Shown here piece by piece: positions 52,340-53,816 of a stretch of 64,000 nucleotides of DNA. The notes beneath the pieces were generated by a model, which ran no database searches, was not told the origin of the DNA, and saw only the letters and a program-made list of their open reading frames with translations. The stretch's first letter is position 1; each line of letters begins with the position of its first letter. The translations under genes were made by a program, and so were the position numbers. The stretch covers positions 6,200,001-6,264,000 of the forward strand of contig NZ_CP132339.1 of the NCBI RefSeq assembly GCF_030944405.1, read 5' to 3'. The stretch is from Janthinobacterium sp. J1-1 (GTDB lineage Bacteria > Pseudomonadota > Gammaproteobacteria > Burkholderiales > Burkholderiaceae_D).

Positions 52340-52422
52340 TCCGGCATCTGCCGTGAGTGATGTTCACTACTGCAAATGCATCATGCAAGACTATGAACTT
52401 TGCGCTGCAATGAAGGTGTTGT

Positions 52423-52675
52423 GGGGACGACCTGGCTTCGACGTGGGTTGCAAAGCAGCGCAGGGGATACCGAGGGCGGGCTACCTCGTCAATACAACCT
52501 GAAAAAGCGTAACTGCCATCGATCACTCTACGCACTGGCAGCTTCATCGCTGTTAGCTCTGGAACACCTCGTCCCTGGGGTGGGCCGTCAAAAGCTCCTG
52601 AGTCACCACAGGGCTGGTCGTATGCTGGGTTACTTGGCGTCCGGATAAATAACAGGTAACGCGCTTGCCCATCAC
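52423..52675 (+). pseudogene. Truncated ssrA copy 1
   Basis: Begins GGGGACGACCTGG like the intact gene at 53218 and matches it through the pseudoknot region down to CGCTTGCCCAT, then diverges. The last roughly 100 nt with the acceptor 3' strand and CCA are missing. The tag frame is damaged: resume codon GCC, one base deleted, TAA changed to TCA. The upstream sequence (from about 52373) also matches the ssrA promoter region, but the -10 TACAAT reads TGCAAT. It cannot be charged with alanine. Confidence 0.85.
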
Positions 52676-52683
52676 GGCGCAGC

Positions 52684-52750
52684 AGGGAATTCTCGCCGCA
52701 TGCGGCGAGCCTGCGTAGCGGCTGGGCGCCTGCTGGCGCCCAGCCTTCCC
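52684..52750 (+). repeat. Structured element, copy 1 (two hairpins inside an outer stem)
   Basis: Outer stem GGGAA (52685-52689)/TTCCC (52746-52750). Hairpin 1 is the palindrome CTCGCCGCATGCGGCGAG (52692-52709). Hairpin 2 is GGCTGGGCGCC (52720-52730)/GGCGCCCAGCC (52735-52745). It replaces the missing 3' end of ssrA copy 1. Confidence 0.8.
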
Positions 52751-52820
52751 ACATCTTCCAGAGGCACGTACGAATGCATCATGCAAGACTATGAACTTTG
52801 CGCCTCAACGAAGGCTCTAT

Positions 52821-53073
52821 GGGGACGACCTGGTTTCGACGTGGGTTGCAAAGCAGCGCACGGCATACCGAGGGCGGGCTATCTCGTCAATCCACCCAGA
52901 ACAACTTAACTGCCATCGATCACACAACGCACTGGCAGCTTCATCGCTGTTAGCTCTGGAACACCTCGTCCTTGGGGTGGGCCGTCAAAAGCTCCTGAGT
53001 CACCACAGGGCTGGTCGTATGCTGGGTTACTTGGCGTCCGGCTAAATAACAGGTAACTCGCTTGCCCATCACG
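52821..53073 (+). pseudogene. Truncated ssrA copy 2
   Basis: Starts 398 bp after copy 1 with the same 5' end and the same truncation point. The promoter-like TACAAT has become CTCAAC. The tag region carries the same damage as copy 1 (GCC resume, TCA in place of TAA), so both copies descend from one broken ancestor by tandem duplication. Confidence 0.85.
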
Positions 53074-53081
53074 GCGAAGCA

Positions 53082-53146
53082 GGGAATTCTCGCCGCATGC
53101 GGCGAGCCTGCGTAGCGGCTGGGCGCCTGCTGGCGCCCAGCCTCCC
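53082..53146 (+). repeat. Structured element, copy 2
   Basis: Almost identical to copy 1: the same CTCGCCGCATGCGGCGAG palindrome and GGCTGGGCGCC/GGCGCCCAGCC hairpin, outer pairing GGGA/TCCC. Confidence 0.8.
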
Positions 53147-53191
53147 CACATCGTCAAATAGCAGGCACGAATGCATCATGCAAGAGTGTGA

Positions 53192-53217
53192 AGTTTGCGC
53201 TACAATGAAGGTTCTGT
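53192..53217 (+). promoter_or_regulatory. ssrA: ssrA promoter region
   Basis: TACAAT (53201-53206) lies 12 bp before the first G of tmRNA, at the right place for a -10; it is preceded by TTTGCGC. The same segment is duplicated, with decayed -10, before both truncated copies. Confidence 0.6.
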
Positions 53218-53578
53218 GGGGACGACCTGGTTTCGACGTGGGTTGCAAAGCAGCGCAGGGCATACCGAGGGCGGGCTACCTCGTAAATACAACCTGAAAA
53301 AACTTAACTGCAAACGATAACTCGTACGCACTGGCAGCTTAATCGCTGTTAGCTCTAGAACACCTCGTCCTTGGGGTGGGCCGTCAAAAGCTCTAGAGTC
53401 ATTTACAGGGACTCGTCGTATGCTGGGTTACTTAGCGTCCGACTAAATAATAGGTAACTCGCTTGCCCATAACGTGCACATCCGTGCTGGCTGAGTTAAA
53501 TTAAATGATAGTGCTAAGTATGTAGAACTGTCTGTAGAGTGCTTGCGGACGCGGGTTCGATTCCCGCCGTCTCCACCA
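53218..53578 (+). ncRNA. ssrA: Transfer-messenger RNA (tmRNA)
   Basis: 361 nt, one-piece. The 5' GGGGACG pairs with 3' CGTCTCC (53568-53574) before ACCA, and GGTTCGATTCC forms the T-loop. The tag frame from GCA 53310 to TAA 53342 encodes ANDNSYALAA, a normal protease-recognised tag. It rescues stalled ribosomes with SmpB. The last bases overlap an 18-bp direct repeat. Confidence 0.97.
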
Positions 53579-53590
53579 CTGGATAAAAAA
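53573..53590 (+). repeat. att-like direct repeat, left copy (ssrA 3' end)
   Basis: CCACCACTGGATAAAAAA, including the last six bases of tmRNA. An exact copy is at 53799-53816. Many integrative elements use the ssrA 3' end as attachment site. Confidence 0.6.
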
Positions 53591-53634
53591 TAATGGCCCC
53601 CGAGCGCAAGCGACGGGGCCATTATTTTTTATCC
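53581..53634. terminator. ssrA: Perfect 20-bp stem terminator after ssrA
   Basis: The 20-nt arm 53581-53600 (GGATAAAAAATAATGGCCCC) is exactly complementary to 53615-53634, 14-nt loop. The right arm holds a T-run of six, the left an A-run, so it can end transcription from both sides. Confidence 0.85.
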
Positions 53635-53660
53635 AACGACGAAACAGCCGAGAACCGAAT

Positions 53661-53755
53661 CCGCGTCCGGCACGGACGCGGGGCGTAGCGGGGAATTCGC
53701 CTCGCATGCGAGGCGCCCGCGAAGCGACGTTGCGCTGCAGCGCAACGGCTCCCCG
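53661..53755 (+). repeat. Structured element, copy 3 with different stems
   Basis: An extra hairpin CCGCGTCCG (53661-53669)/CGGACGCGG (53673-53681) comes first. The outer stem is CGGGGA (53689-53694)/TCCCCG (53750-53755). Hairpin 1 is GCCTCGCATGCGAGGC (53699-53714); hairpin 2 is GTTGCGCTGCAGCGCAAC (53729-53746). Linkers match copies 1 and 2 (GGAATTC; GCCCGCGAAGCGAC against GCCTGCGTAGCGGC), while stems differ and stay paired. Confidence 0.75.
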
Positions 53756-53798
53756 ATTCTTCTGACTAAAAAAGCACCAACGGCGTCTTCCCCATCTC

Positions 53799-53816
53799 CC
53801 ACCACTGGATAAAAAA
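53799..53816 (+). repeat. att-like direct repeat, right copy
   Basis: CCACCACTGGATAAAAAA again, in the context CATCTCCCACCACTGG, which resembles the ssrA end GTCTCCACCACTGG with one inserted C. It sits at the edge of the AT-rich segment. No integrase gene was found. Confidence 0.55.

Follow-up and report, generated by a model that had tools for sequence, protein, structure and literature searches.

The DNA analysed here, a stretch of 64,000 nucleotides from Janthinobacterium sp. J1-1 (the window; positions 6200001-6264000 of a two-contig genome of 6.95 Mb), contains three copies of a folded repeat that we call E. E forms a large family of folded repeats, which are probably small, non-autonomous DNA insertions that join 3' of a G and duplicate the target upstream of the insertion point. 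The insertion footprint is seen directly, as direct repeats whose left copy ends at the first base of E, and from it we infer the joining chemistry. Small folded repeats are common in bacteria, and the apparent target-duplicating insertion of E points to an unusual route for their spread. Target duplications, a fixed 5' border after G and hits in tmRNA and tRNA genes together provide a testable footprint for the spread of repeats without a RAYT. E insertions may also explain some of the partial tRNA and tmRNA genes met by annotation pipelines.

The tmRNA locus

The locus is hosted by an intact tmRNA gene (ssrA) at 53218-53578, which lies between a HAD hydrolase gene and a 509-codon ORF and is identified by Rfam RF00023 (205 bits) and ARAGORN; this gene and the other features of the locus are on the + strand. 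The tag ANDNSYALAA can be read from its sequence. ARAGORN gives the tag for 53218-53578 as GNSLAHNVHIRAG, and the ANDNSYALAA frame, followed by TAA, is found further upstream. From the sequence, the automatic tag call looks wrong and ANDNSYALAA looks like a standard tag.

Self-comparison of the window gives the order direct repeat, E, direct repeat, E, intact tmRNA gene, with a further E 105 nt downstream of the gene. A unit of 397-398 bp therefore occurs twice upstream of the intact gene, and in each unit the region upstream of tmRNA is followed by ~255 nt from the tmRNA 5' end and then by E. Direct repeat 1 (52375-52676) holds the upstream region and a truncated, decayed tmRNA 5' part (from ~52423) that has lost its tag stop codon. 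It matches 53170-53474 at 90%, gives a weak tmRNA model match and ends with the G preceding E. E copy 1 and its 3' tail follow at 52677-52772, with a folded core at ~52677-52744 and a match to model R1 at 52673-52751 (74.1 bits). Direct repeat 2 (52773-53073) is a second decayed, truncated tmRNA 5' copy, recognised by self-comparison and the tmRNA model. E copy 2 with its tail (53074-53169; model R1 match at 53070-53148, 74.6 bits; repeat family D1) is the tandem duplicate of copy 1. Direct repeat 3 (53170-53474) consists of the upstream region and the 5' part of the intact gene, again by self-comparison. The truncated tmRNA copies are worn: in both of them the tag stop TAA has become TCA, unit 2 has lost its TACAAT-like -10 region, and they score 35.7 and 43.1 bits, below the family cut-off, while the intact gene scores 205. 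Copies 1 and 2 most plausibly go back to a single event that was followed by duplication. Since these two, in tandem units 397-398 bp apart, are not independent, only a single stem replacement can be read from the window by itself.

Behind the gene, a terminator-like hairpin visible in the sequence (53581-53634) is followed by a second hairpin (53661-53681), whose 5' side belongs to an inverted tmRNA T-arm copy (inverted repeat I1). Copy 3 sits behind both. With its tail it occupies 53683-53798, and its folded core (~53683-53749) is supported by fold and by the strongest match in the locus to model R1 (53679-53756, 82.2 bits). An 18-nt direct repeat found by self-comparison flanks this copy, the left member (53573-53590) being the tmRNA 3' end and the right member lying at 53799-53816. 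These 18-nt repeats, which begin at 53573 and 53799, were considered as att sites of an island and rejected; they look like the worn form of a tandem unit that is whole in three other loci (L018, L040, L045).

The module downstream of tmRNA in which copy 3 lies is common to other families of the order. In three of the 28 order-level best-match loci (L312-L339), namely L320, L321 and L331, a tmRNA gene is followed at 90-100 nt by an E on its own strand. E also lies 82-104 nt downstream of tmRNA in L340, L341 and L343, loci that were chosen because their coordinates fell close to a tmRNA match or on its contig. The inverted T-arm hairpin precedes E in all six of these loci, and E is located just 3' of tmRNA terminators in three families. 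Either the association of E with tmRNA is old, or the site has been hit repeatedly. In a read-through transcript, base pairing between the inverted T-arm hairpin (window 53546-53669; six other loci) and the 3' end of tmRNA is conceivable.

The comparison of filled and empty sites covered the tmRNA loci of the genus. Among 30 such loci, five have E downstream by a strict pattern, 15 have a related hairpin by eye and 10 have neither within 150 nt. The related form in one of these genomes (G004, locus L058) scores 40.6 and 42.0 bits by model. More than one tmRNA 5' end is present only in the window (three) and in G004 (two) among the 30 loci, and a single tmRNA copy therefore looks ancestral.

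Fold and paired changes

E is formed by a folded core of ~68 nt and a variable 3' tail, and its GC content is 0.69 in copy 1 and 0.72 in copy 3. After the preceding G, the core reads G-Y-GNA-GCNGG, then GAATT, hairpin 1 (7 variable base pairs with a loop of ~CATG) and CCNGC-GNA-R-C. Two bases separate this part from hairpin 2 (7 variable base pairs with a TGCA-type loop, ~NTGCAN), after which the tail begins. GAATT is a 5-nt bulge, the two GNA motifs face each other as a symmetric internal loop, and Y pairs with R. The middle base of GNA varies on both sides; in 96 copies it is T in 41, A in 22, C in 20 and G in 13 on the 5' side, and T in 31, A in 25, C in 21 and G in 19 on the 3' side. The fold of copy 1 has a z of -5.2 relative to dinucleotide shuffles, with 0/200 shuffles as good, and that of copy 3 a z of -2.5, with 1/200 as good.

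The common linkers first noticed in the three window copies are confirmed, as is the difference in both hairpins between copies 1 and 2 on the one side and copy 3 on the other. Two parts of the layout need correction. The best fold of copy 1 lacks the outer stem GGGGA/TCCCC and has GCNGG/CCNGC as its closing helix; an outer GGGG/CCCC stem can be added in the fold of copy 3. The supposed AATTC linker is really the end of the GAATT bulge together with the first base of hairpin 1.

Pairing has been counted in an alignment (A2) of 96 distinct copies picked for pairing in both hairpins and in column pair 12-41. In this alignment 97.9% of 2016 cells are paired and 549 two-sided changes are found, counts that are partly circular for helices 3 and 4 and for pair 12-41, on which the copies were selected. 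Sliding the partner by 1-3 columns as a control leaves 26-43% paired. Helix 1 (columns 5-6/47-48), which played no part in the selection, is 96.9% paired. Its column pair 6-47 has five pair types (UA 52, CG 35, GC 4, AU 2, UG 1), with 2 copies unpaired. A second test used pattern matches that were not chosen for pairing. Among the matches listed, at least five of the six variable hairpin-1 pairs counted are formed in 64/74 betaproteobacterial matches, 3/44 from other named taxa and 2/4 unplaced ones, and the helix-1 pair forms in 69/74, 18/44 and 3/4, respectively, again among the matches listed. Two of the three non-betaproteobacterial matches with paired hairpins, from Pseudidiomarina and Pseudoxanthomonas, look like true members. 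The proposal that stem letters change while pairing is kept and the unpaired linkers stay fixed thus extends from the window to a multi-genome family, the unselected helix 1 included. The accompanying question, whether homologues break the pairing as often as they keep it, is answered by the betaproteobacterial matches listed, where pairing is kept far more than broken (64/74 for hairpin 1).

G-U pairs are rare in E. They make up 32/1974 pairs (1.6%), compared to 32/436 (7.3%) in a set of 20 predicted tRNAs from the same loci (Fisher p 4e-9). Because pairing without G-U is pairing on both DNA strands, this rarity argues for maintenance of the pairing in DNA. Either the folded DNA matters, or template switching from arm to arm keeps the palindromes near perfect. 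E is a strong example of paired bases that change together with few wobble intermediates, and it cautions against the use of covariation as proof of RNA function.

These observations also bear on the suggestion that E is a structured RNA, either a small RNA or an mRNA 3'-end or attenuator element, selected for its fold and dispersed only secondarily. Fixed unpaired bases and covarying stems would suit such an RNA, and so would the position of E just after tmRNA terminators in three families. An 80-nt transcript, BprJ1, has been described from a Bordetella BRE region in the accessible text of PMC3110155 and would count in the same direction if BRE and E are the same family. We nevertheless consider an RNA rather unlikely, given the scarcity of G-U pairs in comparison to the tRNAs of the same loci, the copies of E that are antisense to genes (between rapZ and hprK) or lie within the end of an ABC-transporter gene, and the decay of the tmRNA -10 region in unit 2. 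Moreover, in the window and 16 other loci no Rfam family except tmRNA is matched at gathering score, with weak sub-threshold matches near E.

Direct repeats and the route of insertion

The base preceding E is G in 96/96 copies of A2, at a position unused in their selection, and in 307/315 model matches, a figure biased by the model itself. From the 315 unique copies collected, the 311 with enough flank were tested for direct repeats, defined as a sequence that ends no more than 3 nt from the first base of E and recurs over at least 14 nt within about the next 450 nt. Such repeats, with the left copy ending at the first base of E, enclose 43/311 copies, and the control, in which right flanks were taken from other loci, gave 0. 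The remaining 268/311 copies, which lack such a repeat, may be older and decayed or may have arisen in another way. When the border was left out of the criteria, in a looser first test, 41/151 copies were positive against 9 in the control. Arrays share targets and inflate the raw count, and by reading, the 43 copies correspond to ~13 separate sites, the tmRNA-3' module or the hprK/rapZ site being common to several of them. Window copy 2 is outside the 43 since a mismatch near the border ended its alignment.

The duplicated target is 16-390 nt long, and in recognisable target genes the left copy is cut at E while the right copy is whole. Targets inside the tmRNA gene were read in the window, with 302 nt duplicated, and in L411 from another genus, with at least 97 nt; in L058 the target is the tmRNA T-arm (390 nt). 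The L058 duplication can be explained by recombination between the T-arm and its downstream copy. Among tRNA genes, the targets are the D-loop of tRNA-Phe, twice in tandem (L344, 19-22 nt), and in L292 the D-loop of tRNA-Arg and, from the other strand, its T-loop (25 and 66 nt). Targets at gene ends are the 3' end of hprK beside rapZ (L046 and relatives, 26 nt), the 5' end of atpC (L302, 57 nt) and the 5' end of an ilvD/edd-family gene (L373, 31 nt). In L327 the target is a CCCTTCAAGGGG palindrome.

A footprint of this kind could in principle be a passive by-product, in which hairpins provoke slippage and tandem duplication and E hitchhikes and is homogenised without any insertion step. Tandem arrays of flank plus E with periods of ~70-400 bp and the near-perfect palindromes agree with this account, and the first repeat of the second L292 copy, in the tRNA-Arg T-loop, is preceded by half of a further E, its 3' half. 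That copy is for this reason ambiguous and could be a plain tandem duplication. However, at L302, L344, the D-loop copy of L292 and the window locus, the first direct repeat has no model-detected E in front of it, which argues against plain tandem duplication of an E-bearing segment, since this should leave a leading E. In addition, the breakpoint is occupied by E in unrelated target genes of different genomes, each time with an identical 5' border following a G, and E is common to several genera and families. A passive origin is therefore, in our judgement, highly improbable. As a separate observation on L292 (genome G322), one intact tRNA-Arg gene is flanked by two E copies on opposite strands, each accompanied by a partial copy of the tRNA, and the 3' half of a third E is situated further out.

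Insertion of E as a folded DNA repeat could proceed as follows. E would move as single-stranded or nascent DNA, and its 5' end would be joined to a 3'-OH following a G. At the imprecise 3' end of E, the growing strand would re-enter the target upstream of its exit point, and this upstream re-entry would give a target duplication of variable length. The near-perfect palindromes may be upheld by template-switch correction between the arms, by selection on the fold, or by both. We tentatively raise the possibility, in which we have a good deal less confidence than in insertion as such, that this amounts to a new mode of mobility in the Burkholderiales. In tmRNA and tRNA genes and at gene ends, a folded strand would be joined to the target 3' of a G and the fork would then re-enter upstream, so that each insertion would duplicate 16-390 nt and spare the host gene; the stems would evolve by arm-to-arm template switching, and the GNA/GNA loop and GAATT bulge would be read by a putative protein.

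Two known arrangements resemble the E loci in part. The E. coli tyrT repeats hold a tRNA gene end, and like them the E loci have tandem units with a partial tRNA gene beside an intact one. The E loci differ in having a shared E at the border, and this E is met again at unrelated genes in other genomes. E is also small, non-autonomous, folded and dispersed in the manner of MITEs such as Correia/NEMIS. MITEs, however, are bounded by terminal inverted repeats and duplicate a short target of fixed length, whereas the target duplication of E is variable (16-390 nt) and ends at its 5' border.

Distribution, candidate movers and related repeats

Further copies were sought beyond the three of the window, and they are numerous. 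A fourth copy is present in the same genome at 427263-427340, for a genome total of 4 by model R1. With the same model, E is found in 128/195 genomes of the family (33/44 genera), 40/300 genomes of the order and 6/274 genomes at class level, each with the own genome included, and in 18/98 genomes of one further family; these are undercounts, as strict filters miss weak copies, with a few weak class-level matches that lack the motif. A check of 17 foreign loci at class level found the motif in 12, and in 5 there was no motif near the place read. Two E queries gave no match to plasmids. A viral origin was considered and set aside on the matches obtained, namely 15 pattern matches in IMG/VR and, in phage records, 3 short matches confined to the tmRNA end.

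The preliminary description raised the possibility that E is a REP-type substrate of a Y1 transposase and proposed a search for linked TnpA-REP genes. A REP/BIME element with a REP-associated Y1 (HUH) transposase as its mover would account for a folded, multi-copy repeat that occurs singly, in inverted pairs and in tandem, and the joining of one precise end is, as we understand it, chemically like HUH transposition. A Y1_Tnp gene is present in 180/195 family genomes. Nevertheless, E is carried by 9 of the 15 genomes without Y1, some of them rated 100% complete and one with at least 24 matches (per-genome counts are lower bounds at about 24 scored candidates), and its presence is much the same with Y1 as without it (119/180 and 9/15, Fisher p 0.78). 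No family-like E was found at the Y1 genes of 31 loci in 20 genomes (30 of the 40 matches in 19 E-bearing genomes and one in the own genome), in a scan that allowed two substitutions and mostly covered 1.5 kb on each side. GTAG is not kept in E. E also has target duplications, and to our knowledge transposition of the IS200/IS605 type produces none. Mobilisation by a Y1 transposase is thus quite unlikely, and the proposed link to such an enzyme is not supported.

Other movers were looked for by clustering the ORFs within 2.5 kb of E and reading by eye the first 120 residues of the 25 largest clusters. The clusters are mostly shared host loci (rapZ/hprK, the ABC transporter, others) and spurious frames, and no transposase, integrase or RT was seen among these 25. 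The direct repeats of the window enclose 96 and 208 bp, which leaves no room for an integrase gene. What survives of the idea that E is an att-like folded site is only that E sits in tmRNA and tRNA genes.

E is, by architecture, a REP-like, untagged repeat. REP/BIME sequences with their RAYT (TnpA-REP) are short, folded, interspersed repeats that form inverted pairs and insert in other palindromes, and Bordetella is among the untagged REP-like families, according to the accessible text of PMC2817692 and PMC3733652 for the former and of PMC3733652 for the latter. Like REP/BIME, E is multi-copy, folded and inverted or clustered, with a modest copy number in the genome of the window (4). Unlike them, it has no conserved GTAG at the palindrome foot, combines two hairpins with an internal loop and a bulge that are both fixed, shows target duplications, and has neither linkage to Y1 (31 loci) nor correlation with it (195 genomes).

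The closest described relative could be the Beta-proteobacterial repeat element (BRE) of Bordetella reported by Hot et al. 2011 (PMC3110155). In the accessible text of that paper, BRE is ~90 bp long (75-91), GC-rich, chromosomal and mostly intergenic, with some copies in ORFs. It is often tandem, its copy number varies between strains, mobility has been suggested, and Table 2 of the paper contains no Oxalobacteraceae. E resembles BRE in length, GC content, betaproteobacterial class, tandem habit and the lack of a plasmid match (two queries). Its fold, covariation, target duplication and tRNA/tmRNA link have no counterpart in the description of BRE in that text. E and BRE, likened here by description, may well be one family. 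A search of the open-access literature with the 11-mer sequence word of E gave no relevant published name among the matches listed, and no account of the fold of E, of its target duplications or of tmRNA/tRNA copies carrying E was found in that literature.

Several individual copies deserve mention. The fourth copy of the genome (G000:C1:427263-427340; L252:2964-3041, - strand) extends over the final codons of an ABC-transporter ATPase gene, with E encoding C-terminal residues of the protein, and a similar copy with like flanks is present in L086. E between hprK and rapZ (L046, L047, L080, L143 and relatives) recurs in Janthinobacterium and, judged by common flanking ORFs, occurs in Massilia, Duganella and Pseudoduganella too; in L046 it is antisense to the genes. 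RapZ binds stem-loop RNAs, and the presence of E at its gene is probably a coincidence. In L238-L251 (G082) and L327 (G582), E is interleaved with a CCCTCCCCTTCAAGGGGAGGG-type palindrome in mosaics like BIMEs. Near position 2000 of L256 (G157), foreign DNA that may be an insertion sequence seems to split one E copy within hairpin 2.
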